From a virus, in IMG/VR virus record IMGVR_UViG_3300037258_000873, positions 1-22,379 of that record: a DNA stretch of 22,379 bases; one strand, given 5' to 3'. Shown one piece after another: positions 10,185 through 22,379 of this stretch. Both the position numbers and the translations under genes were made by a program. Below the pieces are notes generated by a model that was given only the letters and a program-made list of their open reading frames with translations, made no database searches and was not told the origin of the DNA. Positions within the stretch are counted from its first letter, which is position 1, and every line of letters starts with the position of its first letter.

Positions 10185-10859
10185 TTATCGAAGCCCGAGC
10201 CGTCGAGCAGCCTTGAGAAGTGATGGCGCGTGCCAAAGTCCGCCGCCGACGGATTCGATACCGCGCTTGTTCAACGCCTCGGCCGCTTTGCGCAACGATA
10301 CGCCGGGCTTCAGGGCAAACTCGATCTGTGGTCGCAGTGCCTCGGCTCGCGCCGTGGCGGCCTTCTGTTTCGCTTCCATGGCAAGCGCTAAAATCGCCTT
10401 CTGCTCGGCCTTTGACTTGCCAGCCATGCCGAGCTTCTTCTTGGAACGCGCCAGCGCTTCCTTCGTGCGTTCGCTGATCTGCGCTCCCTCCTTTTCGGCC
10501 AGGGCAGCATAGATCTGCAAGGTGAAGGCGTCGGCCTTCGGCAGCATCGTGACTACAAAGCGCACGCGCTGCTCCATTAGGCCGGTGATGAAGTGCGAAT
10601 TGCGGGCCAGACGGTCGAGCTTCGCAACGATTAATGCGCCCTTGAGCGACTTGGCGACCTTCAGCGCGGAGCGCAGACCGGGACGCAGCGCCAGAGCATC
10701 CGAGCCCTTGCCGGTCTGCACGTCCTGATACCAGCCGGCAATCGTAATGCCCTCGGCTTTCGCAAAGTTTTCGATTGCCTGACGCTGCGCGTCCAGCCCT
10801 AAGCCCGAGCGGCCCTGCTCGGCCGAGGAAACCCGCGTGTATCCGATTGCCTGCTCCAT
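10185..10859 (-). CDS. serine recombinase of the resolvase/invertase family (224 aa)
   Basis: The catalytic domain is clear: Y-T-R-V-S-S at residues 7-12 with the nucleophile serine (S11), and the LDRLARN motif near residues 81-87 with the conserved Asp and Arg residues. The E helix with KEGAQISERTKEAL follows, then a Lys/Ala-rich stretch and a C-terminal HTH-like segment (LRKAAEALNKRGI). The total length fits small resolvases and invertases rather than large phage integrases. The ATG at 10859 has a good GGAGGG site and a promoter candidate lies upstream (10883-10911). Its target sites are not apparent: I found no inverted repeats flanking an obvious switch, so resolution of multimers or transposition-related roles are equally possible. 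Confidence 0.9.
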   Translation of the reverse strand: MEQAIGYTRVSSAEQGRSGLGLDAQRQAIENFAKAEGITIAGWYQDVQTGKGSDALALRPGLRSALKVAKSLKGALIVAKLDRLARNSHFITGLMEQRVRFVVTMLPKADAFTLQIYAALAEKEGAQISERTKEALARSKKKLGMAGKSKAEQKAILALAMEAKQKAATARAEALRPQIEFALKPGVSLRKAAEALNKRGIESVGGGLWHAPSLLKAARRLGLR

Positions 10860-10882
10860 CGTCGCGCCCTCCAATTGAGGGA

Positions 10883-10911
10883 ACATTACGCCTATCGGGC
10901 AGCGATGTAAA
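10883..10911 (-). promoter_or_regulatory. candidate sigma-70 promoter of the serine recombinase
   Basis: On the minus strand TTTACA and TAATGT are separated by 17 bases, 24 bases upstream of the start codon. The -35 box matches the consensus at five of six positions, the -10 box only at three. Confidence 0.35.
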
Positions 10912-11026
10912 CGCTTTCGGACGGTCGTTGAGAAACGATAACATCGGCGATCGCTGCTGTTGCAACGCGGCAGGAAGTCGACCGCCGTTCGCTGCTCGAC
11001 CTGCACCCAGGCGGGGGCCGACCGTT

Positions 11027-15045: not shown

Positions 15046-15214
15046 GACCGCCCGAGATACGCTGCTATCGCACCGCGTGCTGCGTCTTGATCCCATATGT
15101 GCTTTCTCGCTATTGCATGAAACCTGCTGAGAGTTCAGCACGTAACCGCCGCGGAAAAGAAACGGGGGCTAACCCTTTAGGCTAACGGAGCAATGCTCAG
15201 GGTTTGGCGTTATT

Positions 15215-15274
15215 CGGTGCCACCGGAAACGGTGGAACCGATAACGTGCCACCGAAAGCGGTGGGACCTAAGAC
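15215..15274. repeat. two 29-bp tandem units, each forming a short-loop hairpin
   Basis: Unit 1 hairpin at 15220-15235 has arms CCACCG / CGGTGG around a GAAA loop, extended by CGGT / ACCG to 15215-15240 with one mismatch. Unit 2 hairpin at 15249-15264 has the same arms around AAAG. The units repeat with a 29-base period. They lie upstream of the excisionase-like gene and may be its operators or leader structures. Confidence 0.6.
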
Positions 15275-15287
15275 GTGTCAGGATTTC

Positions 15288-15334
15288 CCGATCCCAATTT
15301 GGCGGGAATCGGTTCCCGTACTAATGCGGGAACC
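15288..15334. promoter_or_regulatory. two overlapping hairpins with an alternative pairing, attenuator-like
   Basis: Hairpin at 15288-15312 (CCGATCCC with GGGAATCGG, one bulge) and a perfect 8-bp hairpin at 15311-15334 (GGTTCCCG / CGGGAACC). A third pairing, GGGAA (15304-15308) with TTCCC (15313-15317), would exclude both. This is the leader side of the minus-strand operon and lies immediately after the end of the 15347-16159 gene. Confidence 0.45.
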
Positions 15335-15346
15335 GAAGATTTAGTC

Positions 15347-16159
15347 CTAGGTGCGGCCAGATTTGAGGGTCGCCCGAACTAATTGTGCAGATAAGCCAGT
15401 TACCCCAGCCAAGCCAAGGAGACCGGCGATGATCGCGTAGCGCTCTGTCTTGAACGGCGGAAGCAGACGATTGAGCTTTCGGATCAGCCAGCCTCGAGCC
15501 GCTGCTTCATGAGAGATCATCGCGCTTCCCCGTTTTCCAAGCAGGTTAGTCGGAAATATTTGGGCTAACCCAAGATCGGCCCCAAGCTCCTGCTCCATTT
15601 CTGCAAGTCTCTGGCGGGCTTCGGTCTGAAATCGTGGTTCACTTCGCTCGATTGAAGCACGATGATGCTCAAGCTGCTGGTTGGCTTGCATTACGCTAGC
15701 ATCGAGCATTGCGGCCAGCGAGTGTGCATCGCCGAAGCCGCCATCCCAGAGCGTTCGCGCGTATTCGAGCCAACGCACGATGACTTTCAGCGTGAAGGCC
15801 GCTCGGTCTACCTCTAGCTGCAATTCCGTCGCTACTCGATATGCGGCGTTGTATATCGGCTCGGAGAACCATATCGTTTCGAACCACTCATGGCGGCGTT
15901 TTCGGAGCAAGAGCGTATCAGCGATGTTGCGGTGTCTGTCAGTCCATCGTTCACGCCATAGATCAGCAACTAGGTAGCTACGTGCCTCATAGAAAATTGC
16001 CTGCGCGCATACCTCCAGTTTCAATTCGCTTGGAATACTTGCGAGGTGCTCATCGAAGACCCGCTGCCAAGCCTCTTCGCTAGAGAATCGATGACGCCAC
16101 TTCTTAACCGCAAGTAGCCCCATGAACGCCTCGACGGCCTCATCACGCATATTCTTCAT
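15347..16159 (-). CDS. C-tail membrane-anchored protein coupled to the integrase (270 aa)
   Basis: The start codon overlaps the integrase stop by four bases (ATGA at 16156-16159), so it is translated from the integrase message. Residues 1-230 are soluble and helical, rich in Arg, Trp and Glu, with a central aromatic patch (HEWFETIWFSEPIYNAAYRVATE is split across residues 90-112). A single hydrophobic helix lies near the C-terminus at about residues 241-261, giving a tail-anchored topology with the bulk in the cytoplasm. I do not recognise the family. Genes coupled to integrases are usually excision controls or cargo such as defence genes; the membrane anchor makes cargo more likely, which is inference. 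Confidence 0.75.
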   Translation of the reverse strand: MKNMRDEAVEAFMGLLAVKKWRHRFSSEEAWQRVFDEHLASIPSELKLEVCAQAIFYEARSYLVADLWRERWTDRHRNIADTLLLRKRRHEWFETIWFSEPIYNAAYRVATELQLEVDRAAFTLKVIVRWLEYARTLWDGGFGDAHSLAAMLDASVMQANQQLEHHRASIERSEPRFQTEARQRLAEMEQELGADLGLAQIFPTNLLGKRGSAMISHEAAARGWLIRKLNRLLPPFKTERYAIIAGLLGLAGVTGLSAQLVRATLKSGRT

Positions 16160-17433
16160 GCGAGCGCCTTACGCAGCGACTGGAGATATTTCTCCCACTT
16201 TTCGAGTGCCGCTCGCTTCTCCTCAAGATATGCGTGAGTGTCGTATGTCGCGGTAATCCGCTCCTGGGCATGACCGAGCACCCGTTCAGCGATGTGCGGC
16301 TCGATCTTCAATCGGGCGAGGCCGGTGCGGCATGTGCGGCGCAGGTCGTGGAGAGTGAAGGGTGCGACGCCGAGGGCCTTAAATCGTGGCTGACACTTGG
16401 CGACGCCTCGAGTGAGGAGCTTCGCCTCAAGAGGCTGTGCCTTATCCTTCGCTGGAAGTACCCAGTGCGAGTGGCCCGCAGCCTTCTTCAGTAGGCGGAA
16501 TTCATTGGCCGCCCAGGTTGAAAGCGGTACGACATGTTCGCGCCCGTTCTTGGAGTTCTCGGCCGGAATGGTCCAGGTAGGAGTCTTGCCCTTCAGAATC
16601 ACGTCACGCCAGCGCGCGCCGGCAAGCTCGCCCCGGCGCTGGCCGGTCAGTAGCAGGATTTGAATCACGTGCGCTAGGCGGCGAAGCCGCGTCGCCTTAA
16701 CTGGATCGCCCAGGAAGGCCTTCAGCTCCTCATCGCTGAGTGTGCGCTGCTTTGGCTTCTCCTTACCCCCAGGCCGCATAAGGAGCTGTACGGGCGTGGT
16801 TTCGACGATGGCCCGGTGAATACCAAACTTGAAGAGCTGGCCGAGCAGGGCGGCTGTACGATTCGCCATGATCGGCTTTCCGCGCGCGACGATCTTGTCG
16901 AGCAGTTCGATGACCTCGCGCGGCTTGATCGTTCGGGCATCCCGGCCCCTCCATTCCGGCAGGACGTCACGGCGCAGCATGGCCTCGGCATACTCGGGGC
17001 GCTTTCGGGTTAGCCTTAAGTGCCGTTCGGTGAATTCAGTTACTAAGTGGTCAACCGTATGGCGTGCGTCTGTACCAGCGGCCGCCGCAGACATGCTTAC
17101 ATGCGTTGCTGTGGGGCGTCTTCGAGGCCGGGCCCTGCGGGGGTCAATACCGTCGTCGATCTGACGGGTACAGGCTATGGCGGCCTGTCGAGCATCGGCA
17201 AGGGACATTCCCGGCCGGTGACCGATCGTCAGACGCACCCATTGGCCGCGCCAGCGGTAGCGAAACAGCCAAGTCCGCGACGCGCCGCCATGCTTCTCTC
17301 GCACCTGCAGCTGTAATCCCGTCGTTGCCGGATCGGTATATCGGCCAGGAGGCAGGCTATCGACCGCAGCCGCGGTGAGTCTCGATAATCGTTTGAGCTT
17401 CTTTGCTGTGGCCAACTTGTGGCCAATGTACAT
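16156..17433 (-). CDS. int: P4-type tyrosine integrase (425 aa)
   Basis: Site-specific recombinase that integrates the element at a tRNA 3' end. Residues about 15-105 form the arm-binding domain typical of P4-type integrases (the RYTDPATTGLQLQV, WLFRYRW and LTIGHRPGMSLADAR pattern). The core-binding domain follows at about 125-215, and the catalytic domain holds R266 (TGQRRGE), H362 and R365 (LHDLRRT), H388 (LGHA) and the nucleophile Y397 (TATYDTHAY). Its length is normal and it looks intact. It is transcribed away from the tRNA fragment at 17545-17592, the usual arrangement. The ATG at 17433 lacks a ribosome binding site and overlaps repeats that may be its own binding sites, so it could be autoregulated. 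Confidence 0.95.
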   Translation of the reverse strand: MYIGHKLATAKKLKRLSRLTAAAVDSLPPGRYTDPATTGLQLQVREKHGGASRTWLFRYRWRGQWVRLTIGHRPGMSLADARQAAIACTRQIDDGIDPRRARPRRRPTATHVSMSAAAAGTDARHTVDHLVTEFTERHLRLTRKRPEYAEAMLRRDVLPEWRGRDARTIKPREVIELLDKIVARGKPIMANRTAALLGQLFKFGIHRAIVETTPVQLLMRPGGKEKPKQRTLSDEELKAFLGDPVKATRLRRLAHVIQILLLTGQRRGELAGARWRDVILKGKTPTWTIPAENSKNGREHVVPLSTWAANEFRLLKKAAGHSHWVLPAKDKAQPLEAKLLTRGVAKCQPRFKALGVAPFTLHDLRRTCRTGLARLKIEPHIAERVLGHAQERITATYDTHAYLEEKRAALEKWEKYLQSLRKALA

Positions 17434-17528
17434 GAAATCGCATGAAACGGCACGTTAGAGCGTGAGGCGCTCGCGGGACTGTAATTTAAGCCATTTGCAC
17501 TAACAAGTCATTTCATGTACTTTCATGT
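17430..17528. promoter_or_regulatory. 18-bp inverted repeat pair between integrase and att core
   Basis: ACATGAAANNNCATGAAA at 17430-17447 and its inverse TTTCATGNNNTTTCATGT at 17511-17528, separated by 63 bases. Each arm is itself two CATGAAA units spaced ten bases apart (one helical turn). They flank the integrase promoter and lie next to the att fragment, so they are candidate arm-type integrase sites, excisionase sites or repressor operators. Confidence 0.6.
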
Positions 17529-17544
17529 GCGTGCGAGTTTGGAG

Positions 17545-17592
17545 TGCATGGGGTGCAAGGGGTCCCGAGTTCAAATCTCGGCGCTCCGACCA
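17545..17592 (+). other. att site: 3' half of a tRNA-Pro(GGG) gene
   Basis: The T arm (CCGAG - TTCAAAT - CTCGG, 17565-17581), the acceptor strand CGCTCCG, the discriminator A and an encoded CCA (to 17592) are exact. Further up, U33, anticodon GGG (17550-17552) and G37 are in place with the 3' side of the anticodon stem. The 5' side pairs only at three positions and no D arm or 5' acceptor strand exists, so this is not a functional tRNA gene. C1:G72 with A73 is characteristic of tRNA-Pro. It is the displaced 3' end at an element boundary or the attP of a free phage; the crossover is expected between the anticodon loop and the 3' end. Confidence 0.8.
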
Positions 17593-17713: not shown

Positions 17714-18541
17714 GTGACAAAGCGCAGTAAATCGAAGCCGGCCAGCGTTGCTTTGACTCGCGTTGGCGTTTCAACCCCCGCGCTCTGGGCCGTCGTGCGC
17801 AACGCCATCAGGCATCTGACAGAGGCCGATGTGCACTACAAGAACAGCCGATATCCCAGCGCGTTAGCGTCCGCAGTCTTGTCCATCGAAGAAGCGGGCA
17901 AGGCAATAACGTGCATGGCTCACGGGAAGGACATTGAAAGCGGCAACAGGCATGTAATCCATCAAATGCCGTTCGTCGCCGTGGTCACCGTTTTAATGAA
18001 GTTGCAGACTGTGGCCAAATGGCAATCGATCTTAAAGAACGGCCTAGCACCGGATGCCGATGTGCCAATCGAAGTGCAGCAGATTGTTGACAAGCATCCT
18101 GAGTTCGCGTCCTTTATTACTGATTTACGCGCCGGTCGCTTGTCGGGTCAGCAGCAGCGCCTTGAGGCGTGGGCGCGGGCGCGAGTGGCAGAGGAGACGA
18201 GAAATGGTACGTTGGACGAATGGCAAAAACCGATATTAGGTGGCGTACTTCACGAACTCAGACTGAAATCCATCTACGTCGATATTGGGAAAGACGGAGA
18301 GGTAGTCTCAGCCCCTAACGCGATTGACGAAGACACCGCAAAGTCAGTTTGCGTGAGCGCTCTGGCATTCATCATGTTTATTGCTACGGAGCCTCGGCTT
18401 GCAGCACACAGAGACGAAACAGGCGAATTACTGGAAGGCATGACGGGCACCGAAACAGTTGCGTATTGGTTTCGGGCGTTCTTTATTGGTCCTTCGGATT
18501 CTTCGCCAGTTGCTGCCAACGCGACGACTGATCCTTGCTGA
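17714..18541 (+). CDS. abiV: AbiV-family abortive infection protein (275 aa)
   Basis: Residues about 25-75 carry the family pattern: a helix with A..HL.EAD, then YPSALASAVLSIEEAGKA, where the EExGK motif is the AbiV signature (residues 59-63). AbiV was defined in Lactococcus as an anti-phage protein blocking phage protein synthesis; relatives are scattered in proteobacterial prophages. The rest is helical, without a membrane helix except a hydrophobic stretch near residues 212-222. The GTG at 17714 has no clear ribosome binding site and no alternative ATG exists before the motif. The last ~20 residues are antisense to a decayed phage gene (18483-18731), so the native C-terminus was probably replaced. 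It sits 122 bases after the att fragment, a common place for cargo. Confidence 0.75.
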   Translation: MTKRSKSKPASVALTRVGVSTPALWAVVRNAIRHLTEADVHYKNSRYPSALASAVLSIEEAGKAITCMAHGKDIESGNRHVIHQMPFVAVVTVLMKLQTVAKWQSILKNGLAPDADVPIEVQQIVDKHPEFASFITDLRAGRLSGQQQRLEAWARARVAEETRNGTLDEWQKPILGGVLHELRLKSIYVDIGKDGEVVSAPNAIDEDTAKSVCVSALAFIMFIATEPRLAAHRDETGELLEGMTGTETVAYWFRAFFIGPSDSSPVAANATTDPC

Positions 18542-18731
18542 TGCCGAGTTCCTTGATGGTCGGTAACGCGGTCGCACCATTCGACTGCGTTATGATCTTG
18601 CCGCCCTTGCCATCTCGTTTGCTGCCTTTGTCGGCGGCGCCTGTGGCTTTCTCCATCGCGGCCAGCAGCTCGCTCGCGCAATTGGACCACTTTGCATTCC
18701 ATGTAAAGTGGTTGGCTAAAAATTTTACCAC
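18483..18731 (-). pseudogene. truncated ParB-like/HTH phage protein
   Basis: Residues about 19-80 read ELLAAMEKATG, a Gly/Lys linker and LGISKDQSSRWQQLAKNPKDQ. This is the pattern of phage and plasmid proteins with a KorB/ParB-like HTH (ELGISKxQSSxWQxLA). The normal protein continues on both sides. Here the N-terminal part is replaced by palindrome-containing sequence (from 18687) and the frame stops straight after the HTH, at the point where the AbiV gene's 3' end overlaps it. I therefore read it as a remnant cut at both ends. Confidence 0.6.
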
Positions 18732-18833
18732 TTCACTATCATATGGAAGTGGCTTAAATCATCCAACAGCAATTAGAAATGCATGCCGCGATGCTGGTTA
18801 CGATGTCGCTACTTCGGCCGTCTGCCGAAGTTG
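18687..18833. repeat. palindrome module A: three 25-bp hairpins
   Basis: Hairpins at 18687-18711, 18728-18752 and 18809-18833 share the frame C[CT]ACTT[TC] - 11 bases - [AG]AAGT[GT]G. The 11-base centres differ but remain self-complementary, for example CAT/ATG in the first and GGC/GCC in the third. The module is homologous to module B at 19177-19327. Confidence 0.7.
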
Positions 18834-19006
18834 TCGCCAGTAAATCCTTGGCTGAGCTTCCTGGCCAATTCTGGCGCGGCATCCAGCTCGATGATGCACT
18901 GTTCAAGCTCGTTTGCTAGCGGCTGCGTGAGGGCAGGCAGGAATTGCCGAAGTTTATCCTGTATGCCTGTGATTAAATCTTCTAACTGTCTCAAATAGGT
19001 ACTCAC
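18809..19006 (-). CDS. small helical protein of unknown function (65 aa)
   Basis: Starts at GTG 19006 with AAGGGGA at a good distance upstream. The product is one or two amphipathic helices (YLRQLEDLITGIQDKLRQFL and LANELEQCIIELDAAPELAR) with a basic C-terminal end (GRRPK). Its last codons lie in the third palindrome of module A. It could be a small coiled-coil partner protein; no family is recognised. Confidence 0.5.
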   Translation of the reverse strand: MSTYLRQLEDLITGIQDKLRQFLPALTQPLANELEQCIIELDAAPELARKLSQGFTGDNFGRRPK

Positions 19007-19046
19007 GTAATATCCCCTTTGATGATGCGGTCATGATGTATGCTGA

Positions 19047-19340
19047 TCATTCAGCCGCAATCGAGGATGACAGTGAGCTTTTTGCGCAGCAACTTAAAAC
19101 GCCATCGCAGAATGGTGCGCCGTTCACAGTTCTAGTTAGTGCCCAGCGGTCTCGATACCGGAGTGGTGTCGAATCCGAGTGTCCGCAGCGATGCGATGTG
19201 GTTAGCGAAAAACTGGACCACTTTACACGGGGTGCAAAGTGGTAACCAACATCATCCCACACACATTCGCCAAGCATGCCGCGAAGCCGGCTGCGATTTG
19301 GACCACTTTGATAGACTATCAAAGTGGCAGCTTCACTCAT
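19047..19340 (-). CDS. doubtful ORF across palindrome module B (97 aa)
   Basis: The ATG at 19340 overlaps the end of the upstream membrane-protein gene by eight bases (ATGAGTGA), as real genes in this train do. The sequence, however, runs through both hairpins of module B, giving motifs dictated by the palindromes (HF-x4-KW), and is rich in Ser, Arg and Cys. The opposite strand (19139-19369) is also open. I give it low weight. Confidence 0.25.
   Translation of the reverse strand: MSEAATLIVYQSGPNRSRLRGMLGECVWDDVGYHFAPRVKWSSFSLTTSHRCGHSDSTPLRYRDRWALTRTVNGAPFCDGVLSCCAKSSLSSSIAAE
19177..19327. repeat. palindrome module B: two 25-bp hairpins and one degenerate
   Basis: Hairpins at 19218-19242 (CCACTTT, 11 bases, AAAGTGG; centre CAC/GTG) and 19303-19327 (perfect 12-bp arms around one base). 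At the position matching the first hairpin of module A (about 19177-19201) only a weak CGCA/TGCG hairpin remains. The sequence between hairpins is clearly homologous to module A, including GCATGCCGCGA in both. Confidence 0.7.
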
Positions 19341-19641
19341 TGCCCAGCGGTCGCTTCATGCCGGTGTAGACCACCACTCGCGCCCGTAACCGCGCTTCCC
19401 ATTCTTCCCATGAATCCGTCCAGCGCGTGAACTGCTTGTCAGCATCCATGCAGTACAGCGAAACGCCGTTGGGGCCGACGTGATCGATGTAAAAAAGCTG
19501 ATCGCGATCCTGTAGCCAGATTTCCTCTGCCTGCGGCCTTCTGGCCCTTGCTGCTCGGCGTTTGAGTTCAAGTCTGATCCATGGCACGGCGACGAATTGC
19601 ACAACGCCAGCGACGCCCAGCACGATCAGCAGCACGATCAC
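19333..19641 (-). CDS. small membrane protein with cytoplasmic domain (102 aa)
   Basis: Starts at GTG 19641, overlapping the stop of the upstream gene (GTGA). Residues 1-22 form a membrane helix (IVLLIVLGVAGVVQFVAVPW). Then comes a basic segment (LKRRAARARR) that by the positive-inside rule should be cytoplasmic, and a soluble domain with WLQDRDQLFYIDHVGPNGVSLYC and RWTDSWEEWEARLRAR. The soluble part looks like a small beta-strand domain. It is in the phage gene train after the terminase; the family is not recognised and it is too large for a typical holin. Confidence 0.7.
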   Translation of the reverse strand: MIVLLIVLGVAGVVQFVAVPWIRLELKRRAARARRPQAEEIWLQDRDQLFYIDHVGPNGVSLYCMDADKQFTRWTDSWEEWEARLRARVVVYTGMKRPLGNE

Positions 19642-19820
19642 GGATCTACTGGCGACACGCGCAGCACGGTGCGGGCTTGACTGAGTAGCGCCGCTGAGAA
19701 TCCTGGTTGTTTAGTTGCTAAAGAACCAGAACCTTTACGTTTGATTCTCGCCGCATCCGGGTACAGCATTGCCGTGATCATGGCCTTCTGGCCTTTAAGC
19801 AGATCACGGATGTATGCCAT
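19638..19820 (-). CDS. short ParB-like/HTH protein, possibly truncated (60 aa)
   Basis: Begins at ATG 19820 (a TTG at 19826 is also open), 17 bases inside the end of the metalloprotein gene. The core pattern, a Lys/Arg-rich linker and then FSAALLSQARTVLRVSP, resembles the HTH of phage ParB-like proteins (GxSxxxLSxARxVLR). Related proteins I recall are longer after this motif; here the frame stops four residues later with a stop that overlaps the next start. It may be a natural short form or a truncated remnant similar to the one at 18483-18731. Confidence 0.55.
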   Translation of the reverse strand: MAYIRDLLKGQKAMITAMLYPDAARIKRKGSGSLATKQPGFSAALLSQARTVLRVSPVDP

Positions 19821-20283
19821 GCTCAATTGCGAGCCGCTGACTTTCTGCTATCGGCATTTCCCATGCGTCCAGCCACATCCGCATGAGCAATTCGCGCCAT
19901 GCCGGTCCGTGCTCAGTCCCGGGCAGAAGTAGGTGTGCAACTTCATGCATCAAGACTGGCAATCGGCATTCATGCGGATGAATCAGGATGCGATGCGCCA
20001 GTACCTTGGCGAGCGCTGCGGGTCTCATTTCCTGGATGACTAGCTCAGGTACATGCGGATAGAGCGGCCTACAACGGGCTCCATATGCTTCCCACAGCCG
20101 CGACAACTCCGCGACAGCCGCACGTTCATTCAGGCGCGGTGATCCTGAAGCACCGCATCGGTCCCATACGGCCTGCTCCCAGCGATAAACCCGCTGGCGC
20201 TGTTCCTGTTTCCTGGTCGGCTGCGTGCTGCGCCAGCGCAACTTCCGACCGGCTGGCCACTGCGCATGCTCGCAAGCACTCAT
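19804..20283 (-). CDS. HExxH zinc metalloprotein, SprT-like (159 aa)
   Basis: The motif LPVLMHEVAHLL gives a zinc-binding H113-E-x-x-H117, and the following EHGPAWRELL supplies a third ligand candidate at H125, which is the arrangement of SprT-like and related phage metallopeptidase domains. The first 40 residues are basic and include RQRVYRWEQAV, a segment seen in phage relatives. No signal peptide or membrane helix is present, so it would act in the cytoplasm, perhaps on DNA-bound or structural proteins. The ATG at 20283 shares one base with the preceding stop (TGATG). It is encoded in the phage train after terminase. Confidence 0.8.
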   Translation of the reverse strand: MSACEHAQWPAGRKLRWRSTQPTRKQEQRQRVYRWEQAVWDRCGASGSPRLNERAAVAELSRLWEAYGARCRPLYPHVPELVIQEMRPAALAKVLAHRILIHPHECRLPVLMHEVAHLLLPGTEHGPAWRELLMRMWLDAWEMPIAESQRLAIEHGIHP

Positions 20284-20606
20284 CAACTATTCGATACCAC
20301 GCTGATGTAATCGCCCGGATTCACCGCAATGTATTCGGTAGCGTTCGCAGGCAATCGTGGACATGATGCAGTCGGTACCTGATTGGTACCCGCAGGCGTC
20401 AGTGGTCCGATCATGAGTGAACAGATGGTATCTGTGTGTACACGAATCACGCGCGTCTGCTGATTGAACGCATTGGAATTTGCAGGCTCGCCGCTGAACG
20501 CAAGCGCCTGGAACGCCAATGGCGGCCACTTCGCGAACGGCAGTCCACCACCCGCCGTGGTGTCGTTGCTGAAAGTCGGAAACTCGGCGATGTACAACTT
20601 TGCCAC
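20283..20606 (-). CDS. small phage structural-type protein (107 aa)
   Basis: Starts MAKLYIAEF at ATG 20606. The product is beta-rich, without charged coils, and includes TRVIRVHTDTICSLMIGP and LPANATEYIAVNPGDYISVV, the pattern of small proteins encoded beside head genes in phages (strands with a Cys and an RLPA-x-x-TEY-like motif). A role as a head decoration or minor head protein is plausible from this pattern and from its place downstream of the terminase. It is coupled to the metalloprotein gene through TGATG. Confidence 0.65.
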   Translation of the reverse strand: MAKLYIAEFPTFSNDTTAGGGLPFAKWPPLAFQALAFSGEPANSNAFNQQTRVIRVHTDTICSLMIGPLTPAGTNQVPTASCPRLPANATEYIAVNPGDYISVVSNS

Positions 20607-21523: not shown

Positions 21524-22379
21524 CTAAATGTCCCGCATAATGCCGCCCCGTCGCGCGGCGATCTCGAACAGAGGGCGACGCGCAGGCTGTGGCGCTACTT
21601 CTGCGGCTGGCGAAGTGCTGGCCTTCGCGGCGGCATTAGCGGCGTTTTGCTGCTGGTAGTATTCGATGATGCCCTGACCAGCGGCGCGCTTAATGAGCGG
21701 TGCGATGCCGTATCGAATCGAGTCGATGCAATGATTGTGACGATCAACGATGTCTGGCATGACGTCACCAGTCAATCGATCCACCTTGTAAGAATACAGG
21801 CGCATCTCATCAAGGGTGCGCACACAGTCAGGATGTACCACGATCATTTCGAACGCGCGCATACGCGCCACGCCGTCTTCTACCGAGTCTGGCCATTTTT
21901 CAACGGAAACAACATCTGGATAACCGTGCTGTTTGAGATAGCTGATCGTTTCGGGCCGCGCGCTATCGCAGCGAATGACGTGATCGCGTGCTCCTGAAAC
22001 CTGATCCAACAATGCGGGCAGGCGGTCGATATCGCAATTGAGCTGCCAAGCTTCGCGCTCGATGTACAAGCGATTGCCAGATACCCAGCATTTCGTCAAC
22101 ACGCTCGGGTCTTTGAATCCAAGGTCGAGACCGTGATAAGGACCATCCCAGTCATCGCCAACCGTGAACGGCTCGACCGTGTACTTCTTAGCGAATACCT
22201 GCGCGTCAGTGTTGCGGCGGCATTCGCCAAGCCAAACATGGCGGTATGCATCGTCATCGACGCGCTGCAAGTACTCGCGCTCGGCTTCCAATGGAGTCTC
22301 AGTGAACCACGGATTGTCGGCGTAGGTCACATGCACGTGCCGAGTATCAGGGCGCTCGCCACCGATAAATTGCATTACT
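21524..22379 (-). CDS. terL: terminase large subunit, C-terminal part (runs off the right edge)
   Basis: The terminase packages phage DNA into the procapsid: an N-terminal ATPase and a C-terminal RNase H-like nuclease. Only the end of the ATPase part and the nuclease are in the window. The nuclease carries the expected acidic residues: GLDLGF, CDSARPETISYLKQHGY and DRHNHCIDSIRYG. This matches the Terminase_3 C-terminal family of PBSX/P22-like phages. The end (after about residue 240 of this part) is Ala/Pro-rich and not conserved. The frame is open at the window edge, and the true start is outside. A portal gene is expected next but is absent here. Confidence 0.9.
   Translation of the reverse strand, partial: VMQFIGGERPDTRHVHVTYADNPWFTETPLEAEREYLQRVDDDAYRHVWLGECRRNTDAQVFAKKYTVEPFTVGDDWDGPYHGLDLGFKDPSVLTKCWVSGNRLYIEREAWQLNCDIDRLPALLDQVSGARDHVIRCDSARPETISYLKQHGYPDVVSVEKWPDSVEDGVARMRAFEMIVVHPDCVRTLDEMRLYSYKVDRLTGDVMPDIVDRHNHCIDSIRYGIAPLIKRAAGQGIIEYYQQQNAANAAAKASTSPAAEVAPQPARRPLFEIAARRGGIMRDI

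Follow-up and report, generated by a model that had tools for sequence, protein, structure and literature searches.

Hairpin repeats with shared outer arms and changed, still-pairing centres in the genome of a metagenomic phage

Background

Intrinsic terminators and other 3′-end hairpins of phage and bacterial operons are short stem-loops placed directly after stop codons, and in this respect, as well as in the T tract found at one of its hairpins (P4, below), the phage locus described here is like them. It is unlike them in that most of its five hairpins have no T tract, exact outer arms are common to the hairpins, and these have been duplicated as pairs, with a distance of about 60 nt. Rickettsia palindromic elements are longer and are dispersed through genomes, whereas the present dyads are local and most likely lie outside genes; a likeness between the two is that a palindrome can lie within an open frame.

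Quasi-palindromes are shaped by template switching, which, according to PMC8604942, homogenises the arms of inverted repeats and inverts their spacers. Homogenised arms, centre changes on both sides and a possible spacer inversion link our locus to the quasi-palindromes of PMC8604942 and PMC7202029, but those are single loci, whereas here five sites carry the same outer arms. REP and REPIN sequences (PMC3116915, PMC8266576) are likewise short palindromic hairpins lying in pairs outside genes; the present locus differs from them in that its hairpins lack a GTAG foot, its contig lacks TnpA-REP, and its five copies are local and not dispersed. The attC sites of integrons (PMC2727003) resemble it in their conserved ends, variable self-complementary centre and position 3′ of small genes, but the paired RYYYAAC/GTTRRRY boxes are missing here, no integron integrase was recognised, and the hairpins are only 25 nt long.

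Results

Five dyads form one family

The window analysed is the complete IMG/VR virus record IMGVR_UViG_3300037258_000873, 22,379 bases long. A preliminary description had listed five 25-bp palindromes of the form C[CT]ACTT[TC]-N11-[AG]AAGT[GT]G, and this pattern is matched exactly at all five of the positions reported, none of which is assigned to a strand: P1 (18687-18711, CCACTTTGCATTCCATGTAAAGTGG), P2 (18728-18752, CCACTTCACTATCATATGGAAGTGG), P3 (18809-18833, CTACTTCGGCCGTCTGCCGAAGTTG), P4 (19218-19242, CCACTTTACACGGGGTGCAAAGTGG) and P5 (19303-19327, CCACTTTGATAGACTATCAAAGTGG). P5 is a nearly perfect dyad with 11 pairs and a 3-nt loop, P2 has the weakest centre, and a stricter form of the pattern, CCACTTY-N11-RAAGTGG, is shared by P1, P2, P4 and P5, leaving P3 as a diverged member. 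The tetranucleotide TGGA precedes P1, P4 and P5 on the left side only, so that the elements are not fully symmetric. When up to two mismatches are allowed, the window contains 11 strand-wise matches against 0.68 expected; the five dyads are one family, real and far beyond chance.

The centres had been said to differ in sequence and yet to remain self-complementary, and this is borne out. Across the five dyads Watson-Crick pairs make up 18/25 of the centre pairs (p ~2e-6, with 11-mers of the window as the background), a figure that becomes 14/20 without P3 (p 4e-5) and 9/15 in the weakest three alone (P1, P2 and P4; p 0.005). In the specified 12-pair stem 88% of cells pair, and in nine cells both sides have changed. 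Sliding the partner by 1–3 columns lowers pairing to 32–45%, and the covariation score was reached by none of 500 shuffles, controls that serve as guides and not as probabilities, the rows being only five, few and related. A covariance model built from the five copies, as the preliminary description had proposed, refound them in the window and nothing else there below E 0.5.

Folding, strand preference and terminator features

The two stretches of about 130 nt that hold the dyad pairs (units A and B, below) fold better than shuffled sequence on both strands, with z between -2.6 and -3.6. Taken as single hairpins, P1 is more stable on the plus strand (-14.0 vs -9.3 kcal/mol), where it forms a 12-bp RNA hairpin that includes G.U and is interrupted on the minus strand, and P4 is more stable on the minus strand (-15.6 vs -10.9 kcal/mol). 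These opposite preferences are due to a G.U pair falling on opposite strands; thus neither RNA strand is preferred throughout the set.

Among the five, P4 alone is accepted by a terminator scan, on the minus strand, with a 12-bp stem and the tail CCAGTTTTTC. On that strand TTTTT comes after P4 and likewise after P2; P1, P3 and P5 are without a T tract, and the scan of the whole region returned two sites vs 2.5 in shuffles. A promoter search among the dyads yielded nothing sigma-70-like, and Rfam covariance models gave no match in the whole window up to E 1.

Duplicated units and turnover of the centres

Unit A (18701-18831) holds P2, its first dyad, together with P3, with P1 at its left edge; unit B (19191-19325), 490 bp from unit A and in the same orientation, holds P4 as its first dyad and P5. 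The units, neither of which is assigned to a strand, are homologous, with 65% identity over 136 columns in a lenient local alignment (E 1e-8 within the window). This alignment pairs P2 with P4 and P3 with P5 and leaves P1 as an extra dyad. The five are therefore not independent copies, since within the duplicated units P2 is the positional homologue of P4 and P3 that of P5.

The centres of P2 and P4 are identical at only 2 of 11 positions vs 73% in the flanks (p 2e-4), and their arms at 12 of 14; for P3 and P5 the corresponding values are 5 of 11 (p 0.05, flanks again 73%) and 10 of 14. Such low identity relative to the flanks indicates that the centres turned over faster than their surroundings while pairing was kept. 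The centre of P1 matches that of P4 at 8 of 11 positions when inverted and at 4 of 11 in direct orientation, and the left flanks of the two match directly. It is suggestive that P1 may be an inverted copy of P4, a borderline result (p 0.075 in a simulation allowing all pairs and both orientations). Of the criteria for a template-switch locus, concerted changes in both arms are seen, and the P1/P4 spacer inversion stands at that same borderline value.

A 25-nt direct repeat of 76% identity (19127-19151 and 19328-19352, 201 bp apart) suggests another local duplication; in the leftward reading an ORF ends in RPLGNE-stop at one copy and RPLGTN-stop at the other.

Gene surroundings

A tyrosine integrase is encoded on the minus strand at 16156-17433 and has an Arm-DNA-bind_3 domain, as phage integrases typically do; the same contig carries a serine resolvase-type recombinase (10185-11006, minus strand; Pfam Resolvase, E 1.7e-23). 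Just upstream of the integrase start there is an inverted repeat (17430-17461 and 17497-17528) with 32-nt arms that are 75% complementary and a 35-nt spacer, which may be involved in integrase regulation or form part of the attachment site. To the right of the integrase, a stretch at 17540-17592 resembles the 3′ end of a tRNA and could, judging by this resemblance, be an attachment site; ARAGORN found no whole tRNA there.

An AbiV-like (HEPN) ORF (17714-18541, plus strand), whose match covers residues 26-70 only, is convergent with the leftward genes. Its 3′ end is overlapped by a leftward coding fragment (18486-18690, minus strand) that has gene-like codon usage, adjoins P1 and looks truncated; no tblastn relative of this fragment was found in the phage collection. 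Between the units lies a small leftward ORF (18809-19006, minus strand; STYLRQLEDL...NFGRRPK) with codon usage like that of the contig's other genes and no family match, the stop codon of which (18809-18811, minus strand) is contained in P3. A leftward ORF of 102 aa (19333-19641, minus strand), supported by its codon usage and also with no family match, ends just before P5, which starts 5 nt past its stop codon. The leftward run includes an ORF at 19804-20286 (minus strand) and continues as far as the terminase gene (21524-22375). A separate 27-nt hairpin (19703-19729; 11 pairs, 3-nt loop) lies between leftward ORFs and has unrelated arms.

A second hairpin array in the same genome

An array of four successive hairpins occupies 15205-15345 (z -5.7, both strands), starting 10 nt past the stop codon of a leftward ORF (15347-16159). 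The first and the last of them (15214-15241 and 15309-15336) share the arms TCGGT.CC/GGAACCGA and differ in their paired centres; some hairpins of the array have GAAA-type loops on the plus strand, and no Rfam match was obtained for it. As the same design occurs here with other arms in the same genome, shared arms with changed centres suggest something that this phage does repeatedly and not a single event.

Search for copies elsewhere

Further copies in other genomes, on which the preliminary description had made the case for an element family depend, were not found beyond chance in searches that called for exact arms, and a mobile or dispersed family is not supported. The pattern TGGACCACTTT-N11-AAAGTGG, which requires exact arms, had two matches in 85,000 species genomes vs about seven expected from base counts. 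Matches of the exact core arms in viral contigs were, among those listed, isolated single sites only, and many of these were plainly other hairpins with different flanks. A blastn search of 18541-19345 against phages and plasmids gave best matches at chance level, megablast of the whole window against the same collections gave no match, and no relatives of the region were found by DNA or protein search of phages, plasmids and viral contigs, nor any of the two leftward ORFs and the integrase among viral contigs. The pattern and peptide scans required exact arms or octapeptides and could therefore miss diverged relatives.

Relatives of the terminase exist at 35–57% identity, and none of 13 records with related terminases carries a copy of the hairpin. 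Hairpin pairs with shared outer arms within 1.5 kb number three in the window vs two in ~1.23 Mb of other viral loci, a rough yardstick as that sample was partly picked by a hairpin-like pattern; one of the two pairs has a differing centre and the other is an identical repeat. A literature search on phage palindromic repeats returned nothing.

Several known classes of element can be compared directly with the locus. The sequence TGGACCACTTT resembles repeated IS ends. IS21-type ends were nevertheless rejected, in agreement with the preliminary description, which had seen no match to them: the ORFs that were scanned included no recognisable transposase, and TGGACCACTTT is not in excess outside the dyads. 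The other exclusion made there, that of REP/GTAG repeats, also holds, with GTAG missing from all ten feet in the flanking sequence inspected and no Y1 transposase in the record, where a search with PF01797 (Y1, TnpA-REP) found nothing; the five copies are clustered in one contig, and the exact-arm pattern revealed no dispersed REP-like family in 85,000 genomes. As for the R″/R′ boxes of attC, two GTTRRRY matches occur in 3 kb, which is below chance, and they do not bracket the units. Serine-resolvase crossover sites were rejected on inspection, as the centres share no core dinucleotide.

Discussion

We tentatively suggest that one hairpin element, lying between genes, is present at the locus in two paralogous copies, both of them located where a leftward gene has its 3′ end; this is our leading explanation, although we hold it to be somewhat short of probable. 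The phage would be a temperate one that has the element in the region separating the AbiV-like gene from its run of leftward genes. Leftward transcription would reach P5 and P3 first in their units, and these would fold into hairpins right at the stop codons; P4 and P2, which come about 60 nt later and have TTTTT after them, could act as a weak terminator or a 3′-end protector. The wholesale change of the centres might then have resulted from quasi-palindrome template switching and/or from selection for a paired stem of any sequence.

We count in favour of such a 3′-end element the two leftward ORFs with gene-like codon usage that end at dyads, and the second array, which starts 10 nt past a leftward stop. 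On the same side stand the homology of the units with their dyads at corresponding places, the terminator-like P4 and the T5 runs after P4 and P2, the changed but still-pairing P2/P4 centres, and the better folding of both units than of shuffles. Counted against it are the missing T tracts at P1, P3 and P5 together with terminator sites no commoner than in shuffles, as well as the greater stability of P1 on the plus and of P4 on the minus strand. From sequence, we infer a modest role as a transcript 3′-end hairpin, favoured by the position at leftward stop codons and by the terminator-like P4. The preliminary description had read the covarying centres as pointing to selection on a folded RNA or single-stranded DNA. 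What stands of this is one hairpin family with changed but still-pairing centres, the product of folding-related selection or of a mutational process; selection on the folded strand is not proven, since template switching yields the same pattern without selection and covariation alone is no proof of it.

Protein-binding operators, neutral quasi-palindromes and recombination of a folded strand are less likely rivals, named here by falling likelihood. That the dyads are operators, with a dimeric phage regulator reading the outer arms and the centres free to vary, we consider unlikely. Arms that are conserved where centres are not, the clustering of all five sites within a single stretch of non-coding DNA, and a dyad symmetry that fits the lack of RNA strand preference are what such sites would be expected to show. 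However, a site read through its arms needs no self-complementary centre, yet self-complementarity is kept here beyond chance; the arm centres are 18 bp apart, which is not near one or two helical turns; and neither a sigma-70-like promoter among the sites nor a candidate regulator was identified.

It is also rather doubtful that the dyads are functionless quasi-palindromes, in which template switching during replication copies arms and flips spacers within a region rearranged by duplication. Both arm homogenisation and spacer inversion are documented for such loci in PMC8604942. The region has duplications, P1 adjoins a leftward coding fragment, and the centre of P1 is closer to the inverted than to the direct centre of P4, next to left flanks that match directly, as such flipping would leave it; the inversion is, however, only borderline. 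Template switching alone leaves unexplained both the outer arms shared by all sites and the presence of dyads at two stop codons.

A coding constraint, under which a conserved plus-strand peptide, WLAKN[FW]TT..SG..HPTxIRxACRxAGxD, would be what is maintained and the dyads its by-products, appears improbable. No stop interrupts the plus-strand frame in either unit; codon position 3 accounts for 11 of the 20 substitutions outside the dyad, and among 14 changed codons 7 still encode the same amino acid. Nevertheless, codon usage in this frame is not gene-like, the peptide encoded by the centre is not conserved, and the dyad DNA is read in two frames, as LDHFxxxxKW in P1/P5 and as TTxxxxxSG in P2/P4; no protein relatives of the plus-strand peptides were found in the collections searched.

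We regard as still less plausible that the dyads are mobile palindromes or recombination sites, folding as single-strand hairpins recognised by a recombinase or transposase in the manner of attC or REP. This would explain the conserved outer boxes, the variable paired centres and the duplicated gene-plus-hairpin units, the layout is cassette-like, with two leftward genes each followed by a hairpin pair, and the contig encodes both a tyrosine integrase and a serine resolvase. It is opposed by the lack of a Y1 transposase, by GTTRRRY boxes that occur less often than chance predicts and do not flank the units on both sides, by the absence of copies outside the locus in exact-arm scans, and by centres without the common core dinucleotide that resolvase sites need. 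A more specific version, in which a phage recombinase unlike IntI or TnpA-REP recognises folded DNA hairpins and duplicates or shuffles gene-plus-hairpin cassettes beside an attachment site, the arrays at 18.7-19.3 kb and 15.2-15.3 kb each having its own arm pair, would be highly speculative.

Under our preferred reading as a 3′-end hairpin element, and with regard to their kind, the dyads are most likely lineage-specific hairpin repeats outside genes and not a new mobile element family. Being the orphan of a single metagenomic phage, the element is of limited general importance for now. The locus also carries a warning, in that compensatory changes in a few related hairpins need not mean selection on RNA, as template switching leaves the same trace. 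Should a real function lie behind it, the locus would offer a clean, small case of a nucleic-acid element that depends on its stem pairing and outer arms alone, the remainder turning over faster than the surrounding sequence.
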